The notes beneath the pieces were generated by a model that saw only the letters and a list, made by a program, of their open reading frames with translations, ran no database searches and had not been told where the DNA came from. Shown piece by piece: positions 16,861 to 51,004 of a stretch of 51,004 bases of DNA (positions within the stretch are counted from its first letter, which is position 1; every line of letters starts with the position of its first letter). Source of the stretch: Oerskovia enterophila. GTDB lineage: Bacteria > Actinomycetota > Actinomycetes > Actinomycetales > Cellulomonadaceae. The position numbers were made by a program, and so were the translations under genes. Location of the stretch: contig NZ_MAQA01000036.1 of NCBI RefSeq assembly GCF_001692445.1, positions 1 through 51,004 of the forward strand, given 5' to 3'.

Positions 16861-18267
16861 ATGGCCACCCCACCACCAGCGTCGTCCACCTCCGACGCGG
16901 TCTCCCACCTGTCAGCACCGTCGGCGCCGTCGGCTTCCGTACCCACCCGGGGCACGCGCATCACCGTCGGCTTCGTGCTGCTCCTGTCGGCGCTCACGGC
17001 GATCGGCCCGCTCACGATCGACCTGTACCTCTCGGCCTTCCCGCAGATCGTGCGGGAGCTCGGCACGACCGAGTCCCGCATCCAGCTCACCCTGACCGCG
17101 ACGCTCGCGGGCCTCGCGCTCGGTCAGCTCCTCATCGGGTCGCTCTCCGACGCGATCGGGCGCCGCCTCCCGCTGCTGTCCGCCCTCTCGCTCTACGTCC
17201 TGGCCTCGGTCGGGATCGTGTTCGTCCAGTCGGTCGAGATGCTCACCGCGCTCCGGTTCGTCCAGGGCCTCACGGCCGCGGCAGGCATGGTCCTGTCGAT
17301 GGCGATCGTGCGCGACAACTTCGAGGGCTTCCAGGTCGGCAAGGTCATCGCGCGGCTCATGCTGGTCGTTGGCGTCGCCCCGATCCTGGCTCCGACGATC
17401 GGTGCCCAGTTCCTGCGCATGGGCTCGTGGCGTCTGATGTTCGTCGCCCTCGCGGTGTTCGGCGTGCTGCTGCTGGTCCTCGCGGCCCTGCGGCTCAAGG
17501 AGTCGCTGCCCCCCGAGATGCGGCGGACGGGCGGCACGTCGGCGGCCCTGCGCTCGTACGGCTCGCTCGTGCGCGACTGGTCGTTCTTCGGCCTCGCGCT
17601 GCTCGGCGGGTTCTACATGGCCGCGATGTTCACGTACATCTCCGCGTCGACGTTCGTGTTCCAGGAGCAGTTCGGCCTGAGCGCCCAGCAGTACGCGATC
17701 ATCTTCGGCGCGGGCGCGGTGTCCGTCACGATCGGCAGCCAGGTCAACGGCGCGCTCGTCGGGCGCGTGACGCCCGAGCAGATCCTGCGCGTCATCGTGC
17801 CCGTCGGCATGGTCCTCTCCGCAGGGCTGCTCGCCGCGACCCTGAGCGGCGCGGGGCTCCCGGTCCTGGTGGCCCTCATCGTCCTGACCCTGGGCACGGC
17901 CGGGTTCGTCATGCCCTCGGTCCCGGCGGTCGCGCTCGAGCGCAACGCGCACCGGGCCGGCAGCGCGGCAGCCCTGCTGGGCGCCATGCAGTTCGGCGTC
18001 GGTGCGGGCATCGCGCCGCTGACCGGGCTGATCGGCGGCGACGTCACGATCACCATGGCCGCGGTCATGTTCGGCGTCATCTCGGTCGCGGGCCTGCTCC
18101 TGCTGAGCCTGACGCGCTCGCTGCGGGCCGCGCCGGCAGTCGACGAGCCGATCGTGGTCTCCGACGCCTCCGAGCTCGGGGTCGTCGCGGCGGCCGAGGC
18201 GGTGGTCGAGGCCGCCGAGGCGGCTCCTGCCCTCCCGGCGCCGGCCTCCGTCGGCGAGCCCCGCTGA
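16861..18267 (+). CDS. Bcr/CflA-type MFS drug efflux transporter
   Basis: A 468-residue major facilitator with 12 hydrophobic segments. The family signature is early: TIDLYLSAFPQIVRELGTTES with the following GSLSDAIGRRLPLL loop (motif A). Such proton antiporters export drugs such as bicyclomycin or sulfonamides, or metabolites. The polar N-terminal extension of about 35 residues and an Ala/Glu-rich C-terminal tail are longer than in Bcr. There is no clear RBS (GAGGG is 11 nt upstream). The stop codon is directly followed by a 46-bp palindrome that probably terminates the message. Confidence 0.94.
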   Translation: MATPPPASSTSDAVSHLSAPSAPSASVPTRGTRITVGFVLLLSALTAIGPLTIDLYLSAFPQIVRELGTTESRIQLTLTATLAGLALGQLLIGSLSDAIGRRLPLLSALSLYVLASVGIVFVQSVEMLTALRFVQGLTAAAGMVLSMAIVRDNFEGFQVGKVIARLMLVVGVAPILAPTIGAQFLRMGSWRLMFVALAVFGVLLLVLAALRLKESLPPEMRRTGGTSAALRSYGSLVRDWSFFGLALLGGFYMAAMFTYISASTFVFQEQFGLSAQQYAIIFGAGAVSVTIGSQVNGALVGRVTPEQILRVIVPVGMVLSAGLLAATLSGAGLPVLVALIVLTLGTAGFVMPSVPAVALERNAHRAGSAAALLGAMQFGVGAGIAPLTGLIGGDVTITMAAVMFGVISVAGLLLLSLTRSLRAAPAVDEPIVVSDASELGVVAAAEAVVEAAEAAPALPAPASVGEPR

Positions 18268-18313
18268 GTTGTCAGAAGTGGGCCGGGGTATCCCCCGGCC
18301 CACTTCTGACGAC
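18268..18313. repeat. 46-bp palindromic element, intergenic copy
   Basis: It starts at the first base after the efflux stop codon. GTCAGAAGTGGGCCGGGG (18271-18288) pairs perfectly with 18293-18310 around a TATC loop, extended by 3 nt on each side with one mismatch. It aligns gap-free with elements at 29017-29062 (37/46 on the coding strand) and 48195-48240. Here it can serve as a terminator. It has no stop codon in the phase used by the two in-gene copies. Confidence 0.9.
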
Positions 18314-27603: not shown

Positions 27604-29400
27604 TCAGCCGAGGTGCACCACGTCGCCCTTCCAGGTCCGCCGCAGCCACCGGTCGTGCGAGGCGACCACCACGGCCCCCGGCCACGTCTCGACCGCGGCC
27701 ATGAGCTCCTCGGCGAGCGCGAGCGAGATGTGGTTGGTCGGCTCGTCGAGGAGCAGCACGTCGGGGGCCTGCGTCACGAGCATCGCGAGGACCACGCGGC
27801 GCCGCTGGCCCACGCTCAGCATCCCGAGCGGTCGGTCCAGGTCGCGGGGGGCGACGAGGCCGTGCGCGTTCACGAGCGGGCGGTCCGCGGGGTCCTGACC
27901 CGTGATGAGGGCGAGCAGGTCGCGCGGGGTGCGTTCGTCGTCGTGCAGGCGGACGTCCTGCTCCAGCAGGGCGACCTCGACGCCTCGCGCACGCCCCACG
28001 GTGCCCGACGTCGGCACGAGGTCCCCCGCCAGCACGTGGAGCAGCGTCGACTTGCCCGAGCCGTTGGCCCCGGTCACGAGGAGCTTGGCGCCCGGCGCGA
28101 GGTCGATCGACGGGACCCCCGCGGCTCGCAGGTCGAGGCGGGGACGGCCGGGCGTCGCAGGGTCGGGCTCGGTCGCCCCTCCCTGCACGACGACGTCACG
28201 CGCCCAGAGCGCCAGGCCGTCGGTGCCGTTCGACGCCCCCTGGGAGCCGCGCCGACCGCCCGACCGCCCGGGCGACGAGCTCGTCGCCCGCTCGCGCACG
28301 AGGTGCGGCGGCGCGAACCGCAGCGGCTCCGGGGGCTTGCGCACCTGCTCGGCCTCGAGCGTGTCGAGGCGCTGCTGGGCGTTGCGCACGCGCCGGGAGA
28401 CCTGCGACTGCACGCGCTCGCCCTTGGCGTCGTAGAGCAGCTTGGACTGGTTGCCGCGCTCACGGTTGTGCGAGACGTTGCGGGCCGTGGTCGCGACCGA
28501 CCGCCGCAGCGCCTTGAGCTCGTCCTGCTCGGCCGCGAACTGCTGCTCCCAGCGGGCACGCTCGACGCGCTTGGCCCGCAGGTAGTCGCGGTAGGTCCCC
28601 GCGTACAGCGTGCCGCCCGTGCGACCCGCGGAGCTGGCCTCCTGCGAGGGGTCGAGGTCGAGGATCTCGGTGCAGACCTCGTCGAGGAACACCCGGTCGT
28701 GGCTCGCGAGGAGCACGGCCCCGGGCAGCGCGCGCAGCGCGGTCGCGAGGAACTCGGCGGCCTCGTCGTCCAGGTGGTTGGTCGGCTCGTCGAGCAGGAG
28801 CGCGCCGGGCTGGCGGATGAGGAGCGCCGCGAGGCCGAGGCGCGTGCGCTGGCCGCCCGAGAGCCGCGCGACCAGGCGGCCGCGGTGGATCACGTCGAGG
28901 CCCAGGCCCGCCAGCGCGCGGGAGGCACGGGCGTCGGCCCCCCACACGTCCGACTGCTCGGCGCGCGCGAGAGCCAGGTCGTAGGCCGCAGTGAGGGCAT
29001 CGACGTCAGCGGACCCGTCGTCAGAGCTGGGCCGGGCTGCACCCCGGCCAGGTTCTGACAACGAAGCGAGGGCCGCAGCGGCCGCCTCGAGCTCGCGCTC
29101 GATCTCCCGGACCCCCGCGAGGGCGTCCTCGACGACCTCGCCGACGGTCGTCGTCGGACCGTAGGGGAACTCCTGGTGCAGGTAGCCGAGGTCGGCCGGG
29201 CGGGTGACGACCCCGGAGTCGGGGTCCTCGACCCCCGCGAGGAGGCGGAGGAGCGTCGACTTGCCGACACCGTTCTCACCGACCAGGCCGGTCCGGTGGC
29301 CGGGGTCGACGGCGAGGTTCACCCCCGCCAGGACCGTGCGGTCGCCGTAGGACTTGGTGAGGTCCGTGGCAGTGAGGAGGGACGGAGAGGCATGGGGCAT
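27604..29400 (-). CDS. ABC-F family ATPase with palindromic-element insertion
   Basis: A 598-residue protein with two ABC domains and no membrane segment. The first domain has GENGVGKST, LSGGQRTRLG and LLLDEPTNHLDD. The second has GANGSGKST, an unusual LSVGQRRRV signature and LLLDEPTNHIS. The linker between them is long and Arg/Lys-rich. ABC-F proteins act on the ribosome; some protect it from antibiotics, others assist translation. Residues about 113-127 (LSEPGRGAARPSSDD) are encoded by a 46-bp palindrome and lie in a variable segment. I set the start at the ATG behind AGGTGA; a GTG 49 codons upstream is in frame and possible. Confidence 0.92.
   Translation of the reverse strand: MPHASPSLLTATDLTKSYGDRTVLAGVNLAVDPGHRTGLVGENGVGKSTLLRLLAGVEDPDSGVVTRPADLGYLHQEFPYGPTTTVGEVVEDALAGVREIERELEAAAAALASLSEPGRGAARPSSDDGSADVDALTAAYDLALARAEQSDVWGADARASRALAGLGLDVIHRGRLVARLSGGQRTRLGLAALLIRQPGALLLDEPTNHLDDEAAEFLATALRALPGAVLLASHDRVFLDEVCTEILDLDPSQEASSAGRTGGTLYAGTYRDYLRAKRVERARWEQQFAAEQDELKALRRSVATTARNVSHNRERGNQSKLLYDAKGERVQSQVSRRVRNAQQRLDTLEAEQVRKPPEPLRFAPPHLVRERATSSSPGRSGGRRGSQGASNGTDGLALWARDVVVQGGATEPDPATPGRPRLDLRAAGVPSIDLAPGAKLLVTGANGSGKSTLLHVLAGDLVPTSGTVGRARGVEVALLEQDVRLHDDERTPRDLLALITGQDPADRPLVNAHGLVAPRDLDRPLGMLSVGQRRRVVLAMLVTQAPDVLLLDEPTNHISLALAEELMAAVETWPGAVVVASHDRWLRRTWKGDVVHLG
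29017..29062. repeat. 46-bp palindromic element inside the ABC-F gene
   Basis: GTCGTCAGAGCTGGGCCGGG (29017-29036) pairs with 29043-29062 at 16 of 20 positions. On the coding (minus) strand it reads in phase G-TTG-TCA-GAA and encodes LSEPGRGAARPSSDD. It has the same length as the copies at 18268-18313 and 48195-48240. Confidence 0.87.
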
Positions 29401-29723: not shown

Positions 29724-31679
29724 TCACGGGGTCGCCGTGGGCTCCTGGGTCACGAAGGCCGTGGACGTCGGGTCCGAGGTCGGTGTCGGGTCCGGTGTCG
29801 AGGTCGGCGGAGCCGTCGGCGTCTCGGTCGGCGGGGTGGTCGTCGGCGGGTCCGTCGGGTCCGGCGTCTCGGTCGGCGGGGTGGTCGTCGGCGGGTCCGT
29901 CGGGTCCGGCGTCTCGGTCGGCGGAGTCGTCGTCGGGGGGTTCGTCGGCGTCGGCGGGTCCGTCGGCGCGGGCGTCGTGGGCGTCGGGTTCGGCGTGGGA
30001 GCCGGGCTCGGCGGCGTCGTGGGAGGTGTGGTGGGCGGGGTCGTCGGCACCACCGGAGGGGCCGTCGGCGTCGCGGGAGTCCCCCCGGTGTAGCGGTCCG
30101 GCATGGCGCCTGCCGCGTAGAACTCGAAGTGCCAGGGCTCGGGCTTGCGGCCGTCGAGCCGCGCCCACGACGGGTTGTCCCACCCGTAGTCCGGTGCGTG
30201 CAACCGCATCCACAGGTACTCGGCGCTGCGGCCCGTGGAGACGGGCTGCCCGACGTCGATCGCCAGGCCCCAGCCGTGCTGCGAGGTGCCCGGCACGGCG
30301 GCGAGGTACGGCTTGGCGGCCTTGACCGCGACCTGCGCGTCGTAGCTGCGGTACGAGTCGGTGATGCGGAGCGGCTTGCCGAACTCCTTCTGGTACTCGA
30401 CCGCGAGCGCGTTGAGCTGCTCGGCGGCGTCGCAGCGCAGGCTGTGCCCGGAGGCGAAGTCGAGACCGCAGAGCACCGAGTCCGGCAGGAGTCCGTTGCC
30501 GTACTGCGCGGTGCTGTCGGCGTACTTGGCGACCACGGCCGCGAGCTGGTCGGCGAGCGTGCCGCCGGCGGGGGCCGTGATGCCTGCGGCCGGCAGGACG
30601 TCGCCGGGCGCCAGCGCGTAGGACGGGCCCATGAGCTCTGCGAGCCGGGTCGCGGCGACCACGACGTCGTCGAGCGTCACCAGGTCGTCGTGGTCGGGGG
30701 CGTCCTCGTCGGTCGGGTCGCCGGTCAGGTCACCGGGGAGCGGCGCCCCGTCCTCGACCGTCCCGTCCGGAAGGACGGTGTCGTCGGGCGCCACCGCACC
30801 GTCCAGGACCGTGCCCGACGGCGTGTCCCCGCCCGCCGCGTCCGGCGCCACCGGGGCCGTGGGCTCGGGCGGGACGGGAGCGAGGTCGGTCGCCAGGGCG
30901 TCCGCGGCGCCTGCCGGCACGTACCCCGCGGGCAGGCCGGACGACACGGTGTTCGCCGCCGCGGCAGCGTCCACGACGTCGGAGGGTGCTGCGGTGGCCC
31001 CGGGCCCTTCGACCACACCGGAGGACCCAGGAGCCGCAGGCGCGACAGGGGCGACCGGCGCCAGCGGAGACAACGGTGCGGGGGCGGGCGGTGTGGCCAG
31101 GCCGTCCAGGAAGAAGCTCCCGGCCCCGCTCGTGCTGGTCCCGCCGCCCGTTCCAGGAGCGCTCCCACCGGCAGCAGCCTGCTGCGCCTGGTAGGTGGCC
31201 AGCAGCATGCCGAGCTCCGAGCGGGCCTGGAGCACACCGTCCGGGACCTGCGCCTCGGCCGCGATGTACTCGTCGGAGCGGTCGACCGCAGCGACGACCC
31301 GTTCGAGCTGGACGTCCTCGTGCGGCGGTTCGTAGGCGGCGGGGAGCACGCCGAACGCGGCACCCGGGGTCGGGGTCTCCGGCGCGGCGTACTCGACCGA
31401 CCAGGACTCACGGTGCGTGATCGACGACCCCACGAACCCGACGGTCATGACCGACCCGAGCACGAGCGTGGTCGAGAGGATCCACGGGACCGCGCGGGAC
31501 GTGTGGCGCGGGCGAGCGCTCGCCGCGAGGCACGGAGGCGTCGTAGGAGCTAGAGCGTCGGTCGCGGCCTCAGTGGCGACGGGGAGGGACGAGCCGGCGA
31601 CCGAGCCTGCCTCGTCGTGCGGGCTCACTGCTGCTCCCGCAGGGCGGCGTGAACGCACACGGTGCGTCGGCAAGGTCAC
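29724..31679 (-). CDS. VanY-type D-alanyl-D-alanine carboxypeptidase with Thr/Pro tail
   Basis: A 651-residue envelope protein. Residues about 60-85 form one membrane helix, followed by a 260-residue Ala/Pro/Asp-rich low-complexity region. The peptidase M15 domain has YRSYDAQ, SQHGWGLAIDVG and EPWHFEF (zinc ligands His, Asp, His). Beyond it lies a tail of about 120 residues, mostly Pro and Thr, with 15-residue repeats. It should trim the terminal D-Ala of peptidoglycan stems outside the cell. The tail resembles a wall-spanning or glycosylated linker; no LPxTG motif ends it. Start: GTG with GGAG 7 nt upstream; another GTG lies one codon earlier. Confidence 0.9.
   Translation of the reverse strand: MTLPTHRVRSRRPAGAAVSPHDEAGSVAGSSLPVATEAATDALAPTTPPCLAASARPRHTSRAVPWILSTTLVLGSVMTVGFVGSSITHRESWSVEYAAPETPTPGAAFGVLPAAYEPPHEDVQLERVVAAVDRSDEYIAAEAQVPDGVLQARSELGMLLATYQAQQAAAGGSAPGTGGGTSTSGAGSFFLDGLATPPAPAPLSPLAPVAPVAPAAPGSSGVVEGPGATAAPSDVVDAAAAANTVSSGLPAGYVPAGAADALATDLAPVPPEPTAPVAPDAAGGDTPSGTVLDGAVAPDDTVLPDGTVEDGAPLPGDLTGDPTDEDAPDHDDLVTLDDVVVAATRLAELMGPSYALAPGDVLPAAGITAPAGGTLADQLAAVVAKYADSTAQYGNGLLPDSVLCGLDFASGHSLRCDAAEQLNALAVEYQKEFGKPLRITDSYRSYDAQVAVKAAKPYLAAVPGTSQHGWGLAIDVGQPVSTGRSAEYLWMRLHAPDYGWDNPSWARLDGRKPEPWHFEFYAAGAMPDRYTGGTPATPTAPPVVPTTPPTTPPTTPPSPAPTPNPTPTTPAPTDPPTPTNPPTTTPPTETPDPTDPPTTTPPTETPDPTDPPTTTPPTETPTAPPTSTPDPTPTSDPTSTAFVTQEPTATP
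29821..29955. repeat. 45-bp tandem repeat in the carboxypeptidase tail
   Basis: Two identical 45-bp units (29821-29865 and 29866-29910) and a third degenerate unit (29911-29955). Each encodes a 15-residue Pro/Thr unit containing TPPTETPDPTDPPTT. Sequence identity at DNA level suggests recent expansion or ongoing homogenisation. Confidence 0.9.
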
Positions 31680-47244: not shown

Positions 47245-50200
47245 GTGAGCACCGAACCGCACGGCCCCGCACGGCCCGCCGTGGACAGCCCTGCGAGCGC
47301 CCCCACGGGCGAGGCGGGTCGCGAGCCGCGCACGGGCGGGAGCCCACGCCGCCGACGCGGAGGACGCGGACGGGCGAAGCCCCAGGTCAGCGAGCAGAAC
47401 CCCGCCACCGAGCAGGCCGAGAAGGCCGACGAGGCCGCCGGTCGCACGGACTCCGCCCCCCGCCGGGACGCCGGCCGCGCCCGCGCCGAGAAGACACCCG
47501 AGGGCGACAGGAACGCCCGGGGCGAGCGTCCGACGTCGGGCACCTCGACGCGTGGCAACCAGCGCGGCACCCGCCGCCAGCAGGTGAGCCGCGCCCAGCT
47601 CGCGCGGGCCGCCGAGCGGCGCGCGCAGGTCGTCGTGCCGCCCATCACCTATCCCGAGCAGCTGCCCGTCTCCGCGCGGCGCGAGGACATCGCGAAAGCC
47701 ATCGCGGAGAACCAGGTCGTGATCGTCGCGGGCGAGACGGGCTCGGGCAAGACGACGCAGCTCCCCAAGATCGCGCTCGAGCTCGGCCGAGGCCGGAAGG
47801 GCCAGATCGGGCACACGCAGCCCCGACGGATCGCGGCGCGCACGGTCGCGGAGCGGATCGCCGAGGAGATCGGCACGCCGCTCGGCGAGATCGTCGGCTA
47901 CCAGGTCCGGTTCACCGACCAGTCGAGCGACCAGACGCTCGTCAAGGTCATGACCGACGGGATCCTGCTCGCGCAGATCCAGCGCGACCCGCAGCTCCTG
48001 GCGTACGACACGCTCATCATCGACGAGGCGCACGAGCGCTCGCTCAACATCGACTTCCTGCTCGGGTACCTCACGCGGCTCCTGCCGCAGCGCCCCGACC
48101 TCAAGGTCATCATCACGTCGGCGACGATCGACTCGCAGCGGTTCGCGCGGCACTTCGCGCCGGGCGGCCCGCTCCCGCCGCTCACGGCCGACGAGCTGTC
48201 AGAGGCAGACCGGGCGGGGGACCTGGGCACCTCTGACAACGGGTCCGTGGCAGTCGACGGGCCCGACGGCGCCGCTCACCATCCCCCCACGGCTCCCGTC
48301 ATCGAGGTCACGGGTCGTACCTACCCCGTCGAGATCCGGTACCGGCCGCTGAGCCCCGACGTCGACCCCGAGACGGGCAAGACCAAGCGGGGCACCGCCA
48401 AGGGGGCCGCCGGCCAGGAGAAGGACCTCGTCACGGGCATCGTCGACGCGGTCGAGGAGCTCATGGCCGAGGGACCAGGCGACGTCCTGGTCTTCCTGTC
48501 GGGCGAGCGCGAGATCCACGACACGGCCGACGCCCTCGAGTCCCGCCTGGGCGAGCGCACGCGGGACGCCAAGCGCCCCGACTTCGTCGAGATCCTGCCG
48601 CTCTACGCGCGCCTGTCCTCGGCCGAGCAGCACCGCGTGTTCCAGGCGCACTCCTCGCGCCGCGTCGTGCTCGCGACCAACGTCGCCGAGACGTCGCTGA
48701 CGGTCCCCGGCATCCACTACGTCGTCGACCCCGGCACGGCCCGCATCTCGCGCTACTCCAAGGCGACCAAGGTGCAGCGCCTGCCGATCGAGCCCATCGC
48801 GCAGGCCAGCGCCAACCAGCGCTCGGGGCGCTCGGGCCGTGTCGCGGACGGCATCGCGATCCGCCTGTACTCCGAGGAGGACTTCCTCTCCCGCCCCGAG
48901 TTCACCGAGCCGGAGATCCTGCGCACCTCGCTCGCGTCGGTCCTGCTGCAGATGATCTCGGTGGGCGTCGTCTCCTCGCCCGACGACGTCGCGCGCTTCC
49001 CGTTCGTCGAGCCCCCGGACACGCGCTCGATCCGCGACGGCGTGCAGCTCCTGACCGAGCTCGGCGCCCTCGAGACCGCGGCGGAGCCCGCCGGTCGCAG
49101 CGGCGCCGACAAGGACGCACAGCCCGGCCGCGCCGTCACGCGCCTCACCGAGGTCGGCCGCGTCCTCGCCCAGCTCCCCATGGACCCGCGCCTGGCCCGC
49201 ATGATCTGGGAGGGCTCGCGCCGCGGCGTGGCGCGCGACGTCGCGATCATCGCGGCCGTGATGTCCATCCAGGACCCTCGCGAACGACCCGCCGAGTTCC
49301 GCGCCCAGGCCGACCAGCTCCACGCCCGCTTCGCGGACCCCCGCTCCGACTTCCTCACCTACCTCAACCTGTGGGAGTACGTGCGCGAGCAGCAGCGCGA
49401 GCTCTCGTCGTCGGCGTTCCGGCGCCTGTGCAAGGCCGAGTACATCAACTTCCTGCGCGTGCGCGAGTGGCAGGACGTCGTCGCGCAGCTGCGCGAGATG
49501 AGCAAGCCGCTCGGCATCGACATGTCCTACACACCCCGCACCCGGGGCGACGCGACCTCCGGGAGGGGAGCGACGTCGTCGGGCACCACGGTCGCCGAGG
49601 CGACCGACCAGCCCGTCGAGCACCGCCTGACCTGGGACGACGACACCATCCACCAGGCACTGCTCGCCGGGCTCCTCTCCCAGATCGGCATGCAGGAGGC
49701 CACCGAGGTCAAGGCCTCGTCCGTCGCGCACCTGCGCGGCCAGCAGAAGGAGCTCGCCATGAAGCGGGCCAAGAAGCAGGCCCGCAACGAGTACCTCGGC
49801 GCGCGCGGCGCACGCTTCGCGATCTTCCCCGGCTCGCCCCTGTCCAAGAAGCCGCCCGTGTGGGTCATGGCCGGCGAGCTCGTCGAGACCAGCCGTCTGT
49901 GGGGCCGCGACGTCGCCAAGATCCAGCCCGAGTGGGCCGAGGAGCTCGCCGGTCACCTCGTCAAGCGCACCTACTCCGAGCCGCACTGGTCCACCAAGCA
50001 GGGCGCCGCGCAGGCCAAGGAGAAGGTCCTGCTCTACGGCGTGCCCATCGTCGCCGACCGCACCGTCCTCTACGGCAAGGTCGACCCCGAGGCCGCGCGC
50101 GAGATGTTCATCCGCCACGCCCTGGTCCAGGGCGAGTGGACCACCCACCACCAGTTCTTCCACGAGAACCGCCGCCTGCTCGAGGAGGCCGAGGAGCTCG

Positions 50201-51004
50201 AGGCGCGCTCGCGCCAGCGCGGCCTCGTGGTCGACGACGACGTGCTCTTCGCGTTCTACGACGAGCGCATCCCCGAGGACGTCGTCTCCGCGCGCCACTT
50301 CGACACCTGGTGGAAGTCCGCCAGGCGCCGCGACCCCGACCTGCTCACCTTCACGCTCGAACAGCTCGTGCCCGACGCCGAGTCCGTCGACACCTCCCTC
50401 TTCCCCGAGACCTGGGCCCAGGGCGACCTCACGCTCCCCCTGACCTACCAGTTCCAGCCTGGGACCGACGCCGACGGCGTGACCGTGCACATCCCCATCA
50501 GCGTCCTGAACCGCGTCGTCCCCGACGGCTTCGACTGGATGGTCCCGGGCCTCCTCGACGAGCTCGCGACCGCGACCATCCGCTCGCTGCCCAAGCCCGT
50601 GCGCGTCCAGCTCGTCCCCGCCCCCGACGTCGCGCGCGACGTCGTCGGCTGGCTCCGCGAGAACACCCCGGCCTGGGAGGACATCACCCGCGCGGGCGAC
50701 ATGGCCGAGCCCTTCCACGTCGCGTTCACGCGCGCCGTCCGCGCCCTGCGCGACGTCGTCATCCCCGACGACGCCTGGGACGACGCCCGCACCGAACGCC
50801 TTCCCGGCCACCTTCGCATGACCTTCCGCGTCATCGAGGAGCGCCGCGGCGGCGAGGTCGTGCTCGACGAGTCCAAGGACCTCGTCTCGCTCCAGCGACG
50901 CCTCGCGCCCCAGGCGCAGGCGGCGGTGCGGGCGGCCGTCAAGGGGGCCGTCGGAGCGGCGTTGCGCGAGGCTGCTGCTGGGGCGGACGCGGGGAGGGGG
51001 GCGG
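47245..51004 (+). CDS. hrpA: HrpA-type DEAH-box ATP-dependent RNA helicase, 3'-truncated
   Basis: The frame is open to the last base, so the C-terminus is missing; 1253 codons are visible against about 1300 for E. coli HrpA. The first 125 residues are a disordered Arg/Gly/Pro-rich extension. Helicase motifs are GETGSGKTTQLP near residue 163, the DEAH box (DEAHERS) near 260, SATID near 292, then a conserved C-terminal HrpA domain (VHIPISVLNRVVPDGF). Residues 318-332 (LSEADRAGDLGTSDN) come from a 46-bp palindrome inside a 40-residue insertion between SATID and EVTGRTYPVEIRY. GTG start; no RBS. Confidence 0.93.
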   Translation, partial: MSTEPHGPARPAVDSPASAPTGEAGREPRTGGSPRRRRGGRGRAKPQVSEQNPATEQAEKADEAAGRTDSAPRRDAGRARAEKTPEGDRNARGERPTSGTSTRGNQRGTRRQQVSRAQLARAAERRAQVVVPPITYPEQLPVSARREDIAKAIAENQVVIVAGETGSGKTTQLPKIALELGRGRKGQIGHTQPRRIAARTVAERIAEEIGTPLGEIVGYQVRFTDQSSDQTLVKVMTDGILLAQIQRDPQLLAYDTLIIDEAHERSLNIDFLLGYLTRLLPQRPDLKVIITSATIDSQRFARHFAPGGPLPPLTADELSEADRAGDLGTSDNGSVAVDGPDGAAHHPPTAPVIEVTGRTYPVEIRYRPLSPDVDPETGKTKRGTAKGAAGQEKDLVTGIVDAVEELMAEGPGDVLVFLSGEREIHDTADALESRLGERTRDAKRPDFVEILPLYARLSSAEQHRVFQAHSSRRVVLATNVAETSLTVPGIHYVVDPGTARISRYSKATKVQRLPIEPIAQASANQRSGRSGRVADGIAIRLYSEEDFLSRPEFTEPEILRTSLASVLLQMISVGVVSSPDDVARFPFVEPPDTRSIRDGVQLLTELGALETAAEPAGRSGADKDAQPGRAVTRLTEVGRVLAQLPMDPRLARMIWEGSRRGVARDVAIIAAVMSIQDPRERPAEFRAQADQLHARFADPRSDFLTYLNLWEYVREQQRELSSSAFRRLCKAEYINFLRVREWQDVVAQLREMSKPLGIDMSYTPRTRGDATSGRGATSSGTTVAEATDQPVEHRLTWDDDTIHQALLAGLLSQIGMQEATEVKASSVAHLRGQQKELAMKRAKKQARNEYLGARGARFAIFPGSPLSKKPPVWVMAGELVETSRLWGRDVAKIQPEWAEELAGHLVKRTYSEPHWSTKQGAAQAKEKVLLYGVPIVADRTVLYGKVDPEAAREMFIRHALVQGEWTTHHQFFHENRRLLEEAEELEARSRQRGLVVDDDVLFAFYDERIPEDVVSARHFDTWWKSARRRDPDLLTFTLEQLVPDAESVDTSLFPETWAQGDLTLPLTYQFQPGTDADGVTVHIPISVLNRVVPDGFDWMVPGLLDELATATIRSLPKPVRVQLVPAPDVARDVVGWLRENTPAWEDITRAGDMAEPFHVAFTRAVRALRDVVIPDDAWDDARTERLPGHLRMTFRVIEERRGGEVVLDESKDLVSLQRRLAPQAQAAVRAAVKGAVGAALREAAAGADAGRGA
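48195..48240. repeat. 46-bp palindromic element inside hrpA
   Basis: Outer arms TGTCAGAGG (48197-48205) and CCTCTGACA (48230-48238) pair perfectly; the inner part has decayed. It aligns without gaps to the ABC-F copy at 31 of 46 positions and is read in the same phase (G-CTG-TCA-GAG), encoding LSEADRAGDLGTSDN. Confidence 0.8.

Follow-up and report, generated by a model that had tools for sequence, protein, structure and literature searches.

A fixed-length palindromic repeat lies in frame in genes of Oerskovia enterophila and occurs as a second type at many of the same places in a related species

The gene for an ABC-F ATPase in Oerskovia enterophila contains a palindromic DNA element, wholly within its coding sequence, and raises the question of how such a sequence came to be there and what maintains it. 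The gene (nt 27604–29400, minus strand, 598 aa from an ATG at 29400) lies in a stretch of 51,004 nt (contig NZ_MAQA01000036.1, analysed at its full length and called the window below). The element, which belongs to type A (CCGG interior), occupies nt 29017–29062, with a 42 bp core at 29019–29060. It is one of at least 84 copies in the genome, and because a related species has another spelling at many of the same places, the repeat is probably selfish and would be renewed in place.

The palindrome is imperfect, with 16 of the first 20 arm positions paired (18 of 23 overall), and supplies 15 residues (LSEPGRGAARPSSDD, residues 114–128 of 598) between the Walker A motif (from residue 41) and the LSGGQ signature (from residue 180), in agreement with the initial annotation of the window. 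The annotation also reported a similar hairpin at nt 18268–18313, and the likeness is exact as given (37 of 46 positions, without gaps), applying to the reverse-complement orientation (35 of 46 in the direct one). It counted three copies and left the third unplaced; this is now located at nt 48197–48238.

A search of the genome for further copies, which the same annotation had suggested, found them at about 80 places. BLAST with either of the first two copies gave 81 and 60 matches on both strands, and a 66-position covariance model of the core and its flanks gave at least 150 matches on both strands, again at about 80 places; the ABC-F element matched it over its full length (nt 29007–29072; 67 bits on the plus strand, 59.8 on the minus). 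A gapless weight matrix run over 318,636 bases of the genome recovered 84 copies scoring 43–88 and one partial copy at 23.5, against a maximum of −19.9 on the reversed sequence. Because the scanned stretches had been selected around known copies, the count of 84 is a minimum for the genome and gives little information on decayed copies outside them.

Since a gapless matrix could not speak to length, this was tested separately with variable spacing. Fixed boxes, TGTCAGA and TCTGACA, bound the 42 bp core in every copy. When spacings of 28–58 bp and one mismatch per box were allowed, 84 box pairs were 42 bp long, one was 32 bp and one 36 bp, and the last two look like chance pairings. Without mismatches, all 58 pairs in these stretches were at 42 bp, and the whole genome likewise held 58. 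In an alignment of 51 of 52 box pairs (the 36 bp pair was left out), each copy is made up of the outer box (AGTTGTCAGAA) with its mirror, roughly five variable bases of arm, the inner CCGG and a loose centre. The flanks beyond the boxes read ACTNRTC outwards; they are less conserved than the core and palindromic, and with both sides pooled their conservation is gone by about position +11. Together with the spacing of tandem copies, this gives a unit of about 62 bp.

Neighbouring copies lie 62–64 bp apart in eight of 19 pairs, four of which belong to one array, and similar periods are seen in relatives (62–63 bp in several pairs of genome G002, 61 bp in several pairs of G011). Neighbours are related to each other: in 18 of the 19 pairs they are more alike directly than inverted (the remaining pair is a tie), but what lies between them is mostly unrelated sequence. 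The longest array seen (locus L131, 247–561, contig C49) has five tandem copies with a period of 62–63 bp. At L115 (2784–3235, contig C12) two identical copies flank a candidate tRNA gene (anticodon CAT), identified by eye, and G001, G002 and G006 yielded no element at the orthologous position.

Most copies are found in convergent or codirectional gaps, or in frame within genes. By our codon-usage gene calls, on which the gap and in-gene counts of this genome rest, the 38 intergenic gaps of at least 60 bp that carry an element comprise 20 codirectional, 17 convergent and one divergent gap, compared with 79, 14 and 40 among the 133 gaps without one. Divergent gaps are avoided (Fisher p = 0.0002) and convergent gaps favoured (p = 9e-6). 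Copies within predicted genes number 23 of 84, and all 23 are read in one frame, giving a peptide of the form LSE...SDN. Twelve of the 23 passed a stricter flank filter, three were added by hand (L112:6521, L113:2772 and L123:2784), and eight doubtful calls (three at L103, three at L130, L111:7063 and L139:103) were left out of the protein comparison. The host genes are unrelated; as read from their Pfam domains, they include a PutA-type enzyme, a molybdopterin oxidoreductase, an MFS transporter, an ABC exporter, an MrfA-type helicase, a condensation-domain protein, uroporphyrinogen-III synthase, a P-type ATPase and a histidine kinase. Across 15 loci in six genomes, all 51 in-gene copies with at most two box mismatches (the best copy being kept per sequence) are in this same frame; these are not 51 independent events, because copies in relatives share descent. 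The host proteins are therefore predicted to gain the same kind of polar loop each time.

Among the 168 readings of the 84 copies, 166 are open in frame 1 (LSE...SDN), 141 in frame 0 and two in frame 2; by our arithmetic, 12 of 12 copies would fall in frame 1 through openness alone with a chance of about 0.0006. The second type of the repeat, type B, behaves differently: in 42 copies from G002, in-gene copies included, 82 of 84 readings are open in frame 0 but only 45 in frame 1. Nonetheless, all 13 loci with an in-gene B copy have it in frame 1. This means either that the old frame survives when the sequence between the boxes is replaced, or that proteins do not tolerate the frame-0 peptide.

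The six other Oerskovia genomes (G001–G006) were used for comparison. A tree from the flanks of nine loci (of 15; four were dropped by hand as poorly alignable and two lacked a species) separates O. enterophila from a group of G001 and G006 (support 96) and a group of G002, G003, G004 and G005 (support 100). Exact box pairs number 58 in O. enterophila, 88 in G002 and 77 in G004, and 4–11 in each of G001, G003, G005 and G006. Thirty-four places from O. enterophila were compared, of which 31 could be examined in G001, 32 in G002 and 31 in G006. In G002, 18 of the 32 carry an intact element (16 by script, and L133 and L112 from alignments), always of type B. The copies in O. enterophila are of type A, as are those of G001 at shared places. 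In the reverse direction, seven of 15 sampled G002 copies have an O. enterophila copy within 150 bp of the orthologous place. Were 88 copies scattered at random, sharing at 18 of 32 places would have a chance of about 2e-35, a figure that shows only that the places are non-random.

Relatives with genes 93–94% identical lack nearly all of the copies examined. This is so for G001 and G006, which are closer relatives than G002: an intact element was present at two of 31 places in G001 and at none of 31 in G006, with three more in each at 3–4 mismatches, where the appearance of L108 in both is likely due to chance. In the proteins, G002 and G004 have peptides like SEPAS...HAGSDN in most of the loops where O. 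enterophila has LSEx.R..R..SDN, and in G001, G003, G005 and G006 the peptide is decayed or absent at many such loops. G003 and G005 retain type B with one or two box mismatches at several loops. At L129, G003 has a decayed A-like peptide, and G002, G004 and G005 have type B. At L139 the copies of relatives are within the gene, at another place.

The ABC-F loop itself was compared in the seven Oerskovia genomes and in 39 aligned homologs. The A-type peptide is present in O. enterophila and two 99% identical homologs, and decayed versions are found in G001 (four box mismatches), G005 (three) and their kin. In G002 and G003 the loop holds type B preceded by a short A-like stretch, LSDAG, and in G004 type B without it. 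The 16 close, Oerskovia-like homologs thus carry A-like, decayed, doubled or B-like peptides, and none of the 23 more distant homologs, O. flava included, has a peptide resembling LSE...SDN. The annotation had named two outcomes that would refute its reading, the same residues at this place in distant genera and a lack of further copies in the genome; neither was found. Its description of the element as an insertion is thus supported, with the refinement that this kind of element likely predates the species at the ABC-F locus, and other species have the other type there. Distant loops are mostly shorter, with three (P0180, P0182 and P0195) about as long, and three loops of Cellulosimicrobium type begin with (V/L)SAP, which may reflect an older, decayed relation. 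One homolog (P0134, source jgi) carries a tandem pair of A-type peptides in the ABC-F loop. In the predicted structure, the element residues form a coil between helices 86–114 and 128–149, where model confidence falls below 50 (residues 120–124; mean predicted local distance difference test score, pLDDT, 80.7).

The explanation we favour, and to which we give about an even chance, is that the repeat is a selfish palindrome, similar to repetitive extragenic palindromic (REP) sequences and Rickettsia palindromic elements (RPEs), whose copies would be renewed where they stand, with other copies as templates. In this view the outer boxes, as a hairpin or cruciform, would be recognised by an enzyme or repair process acting in trans, which would place new copies mainly onto or beside existing ones. 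Copying onto an old copy would switch the interior type and leave place, length and frame unchanged, and once activity stopped, copies would decay or vanish, which fits the four low-copy species (G001, G003, G005 and G006). Insertions in genes are likely tolerated, because in type A one frame almost never contains a stop and the peptide lands in coils; selection would remove insertions of any other kind. The frame-1 reading of B copies, despite frame 0 being open more often, fits what replacement between the boxes would produce. In G002 and G003, LSDAG precedes type B in the ABC-F loop, and at L129 G003 keeps its A-like peptide; these are read as old remnants beside the new type and counted as support, as are the long-kept type A insertion in fbiD and the excess of identical arms, both described below. 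The broader proposal that follows, advanced tentatively, is one of genome-wide type switching, in which palindromes without a transposase overwrite their own older copies, so that dispersed sites, enzyme loops among them, are respelled together between species while place, 42 bp length and frame stay fixed.

Several observations weigh against renewal in place. At most of the places where G001 and G006 lack an element, no remnant stands out from a shuffled control. In the PutA-type gene (L108), G001, G003, G005 and G006, which represent both clades, share one short element-free loop, and O. enterophila, G002 and G004 have elements there; this suggests fresh, repeated insertion at one site in the latter three rather than renewal of an old copy. 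In the ABC-F loop, at L110 and at nt 48197, the two types lie several residues apart, although alignment in such variable loops is uncertain. No enzyme was identified, the search being for Y1_Tnp, which is absent from carriers of the family. The hairpin is not clearly a target of selection, because column-wise pairing is no better than in shuffles, both in the 51-copy alignment (72.9% against 72.5%) and in type B of G002 and G004 (below the shuffled mean).

Further tests of pairing gave a mixed picture. Across the O. enterophila copies, 731 of 1008 cells were paired against 712 in shuffles, and 20 of 500 shuffles were as high. When whole arms were compared, with near neighbours dropped, 17 of 65 copies had identical arms against 2.5 expected by random re-pairing, and this excess of perfectly matched arms makes a process at the level of the hairpin possible. 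A conserved RNA hairpin maintained by compensating changes found no column-by-column support. Known structured RNA families found no support in three loci holding 17 of the 84 copies, which gave no Rfam match at the gathering threshold.

Independent reinsertion at preferred sites is a strong rival. It supposes a selfish palindrome moved by a putative transposase with a very narrow target preference; each species would have been colonised separately, with different types returning to the same few sites. The L108 loop, empty in four species of both clades and filled in O. enterophila, G002 and G004 by elements with different flanks, is what it would predict, and by our arithmetic the sharing of about half the sites fits a pool of only about 150 acceptable sites. 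We nevertheless consider it rather unlikely, since the occupied sites of O. enterophila showed no common target motif outside the flanks of the element itself, remnants of the old type lie at positions of the new one (ABC-F and L129), and in-gene B copies are in frame 1 even though frame 0 is more often open.

It is less probable still that the repeat is a functional DNA site, a 42 bp dyad bound by a chromosomal protein (an organiser, terminator or the like), with selected places and an interior that co-evolves with the protein. Conserved boxes around a freer interior, the exact length and the bias towards convergent gaps (17 of the 38 with an element, 14 of the 133 without) and away from divergent ones (1 and 40, respectively) would suit such a site, as would the uneven distribution along the single-contig chromosome of G002, where two of the first 60 elements listed fall in the first 1.02 Mb. 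This distribution is given without reference to origin or terminus: GC skew, taken from 20 stretches, showed no clear pattern, and no dnaA was recognised in the first 6 kb. A site of this kind is hard to reconcile with close relatives that do without nearly all the copies examined, with copies in unrelated protein loops, and with local direct duplicates and arrays that look like copying.

Very improbable is a classic REP moved by a since-lost REP-associated tyrosine transposase (RAYT, a Y1 enzyme). Size, palindromy and intergenic placement do resemble those of the REPs described in passages of PMC3733652. Y1_Tnp was found in neither O. enterophila nor 24 other genomes of the family, and in one of 39 genomes overall (G038, of another family of the order and without a pattern match), in a search whose control was positive in five of 14 known genomes. 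No unpaired GTAG or CGTC tag occurs at either end in the 51 aligned copies, and inverted dimers (bacterial interspersed mosaic elements, BIMEs) were not seen, the neighbours being direct. Finally, chance resemblance of a native coding stretch, conceivable because variable, polar loops are common in such genes, has practically nothing left to it given 84 copies at exact spacing, the low scores of the reversed control and 23 distant homologs lacking the peptide.

Palindromes that code for protein are best known from Rickettsia, where the RPEs were reportedly described by Ogata et al. in 2000 and 2002. The initial annotation had compared the element to these. The comparison holds for behaviour, on which alone it was made: the repeat is palindromic and dispersed, lies in frame, and in one frame, in unrelated genes, and adds a peptide that is apparently tolerated. 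It does not extend to membership of the tagged CGTC/GTAG REP superfamilies. RPEs are about 150 bp long according to a passage of PMC10969869, compared with a 42 bp core and a unit of about 62 bp here; the present host is a GC-rich actinobacterium, and related species have another type in the same loop. RPEs are also mentioned in part of PMC2635572. Passages of PMC3733652 describe CGTC REPs as lacking a dedicated transposase, with RPE-4 and RPE-6 corresponding to them. GTAG and CGTC REPs, as presented there, are likewise short palindromes that prefer convergent and codirectional gaps and have intragenic copies. The present family differs in its symmetrical boxes, its fixed, longer length and its direct rather than inverted neighbours. 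The same passages report one case in which two Xanthomonas species have different REPs at roughly corresponding positions in recB. With regard to miniature inverted-repeat transposable elements (MITEs), for which terminal inverted repeats shared with an insertion sequence and a target-site duplication would be expected, the observation is that the box flanks are palindromic and not directly repeated.

The REP orthoswitch of pseudomonads and stenotrophomonads, described in passages of PMC3686654, is similar in that one class of REP yields to another in related strains. There, the process is tied to RAYTs, and in the model of those authors old REPs stay and decay as the new variant spreads, whereas here the new type occupies the old places and the search for a RAYT gene gave none. 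PARCELs (palindromic amphipathic repeat coding elements), according to part of PMC2996958, are also coding sequences with dyad symmetry that are thought to spread, but they involve a 25-residue motif, tandem arrays and open reading frames without an assigned function, in contrast to the single insertions in conserved genes seen here. The word 'actinobacteria' does not occur in the main text of PMC3733652. Among the literature matches listed, none dealt with elements of this kind in Oerskovia or with palindromes read in frame within actinobacterial genes, which is weak evidence of novelty as most subscription journals were outside the scope of the search. Oerskovia, presumably culturable and free-living, offers high-copy and low-copy species, intact, decayed and empty versions of one loop, and two types at the same places, a set that makes insertion, renewal and loss of repeats directly testable.

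Type A is likely older than O. enterophila, because the C-terminus of fbiD (2-phospho-L-lactate guanylyltransferase), which in this species reads LSELHRAMDRASSD, is common to all Oerskovia-type sequences examined. It is present, intact or decayed, in 22 of 22 of these and absent from 10 of 10 others (Cellulosimicrobium, Promicromonospora, Antribacter, O. flava and one other). The fbiD C-terminus in the genus suggests how a protein may come to incorporate a repeat permanently; at L141 (2127–2924) it appears to be an old element turned protein (LSELHRAMDRA). Restoration of the boxes at the fbiD site of O. enterophila was considered and dropped: many Oerskovia keep LSELHRAMDRA..SD, so simple decay elsewhere suffices. 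Gain at preferred places and long persistence both seem to occur.

Beyond the genus, the covariance model (E ≤ 0.01) matched 19 of 39 genomes, O. enterophila and all six other Oerskovia included, as well as several genera of the family, some weakly. The exact-box pattern with variable spacing matched 16 of 39, O. enterophila included, and 42 bp was the length in most of the matches listed; the exceptions among them were a 40 bp copy in G008 and other lengths in G019, G020 and G021. G011 has its own interior type, with 34 of 35 matches at 42 bp. In a sample of 15 matches from this genome (14 distinct copies), one was near the end of an open frame and none was clearly inside a gene, so in-gene copies may be a habit of Oerskovia. 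A stricter 22-base pattern found 15 stretches in Oerskovia merdavium, O. douganii, Antribacter gilvus and a Jiangellales metagenome-assembled genome, the last with exact type A matches (L092, L097 and L101). Carriage by phages or viruses was rejected as a 22-base pattern of type A, the one type tried, matched no viral contig. In G020, of another genus, three copies of an identical 51 bp sequence (TGTCAGAC...TCTGACA; contig C1 near 206853, 1013412 and 2987125) are possibly the end of an insertion sequence.

Within the window, a half-site pattern (up to three mismatches) had four matches against 0.14 expected from shuffles. The second copy (nt 18268–18313) is a nearly perfect hairpin (21 of 23 pairs) directly downstream of a Bcr/CflA-family efflux gene (nt 16861–18267), its 42 bp core beginning 2 bases past the stop codon. 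The third (score 48.7; 14 of 23 pairs over the 46 bp at nt 48195–48240) is in the same reading frame as the ABC-F element and encodes ELSEADRAGDLGTSDN within a DEAH-box helicase gene (nt 47281–51003, plus strand, limits from codon-usage gene calling) that extends beyond the window. Its DUF3418, OB_NTP_bind, HA2_C, Helicase_C and DEAD domains suggest, by our reading, an HrpA-like protein. The best NCBIfam match of the ABC-F protein was a TlrC/CarA-type model, below the cut-off. A repetitive, GTCGGCGGGTCCGTC-like stretch at nt 29780–30080 lies inside the adjoining predicted gene (nt 29724–31628).
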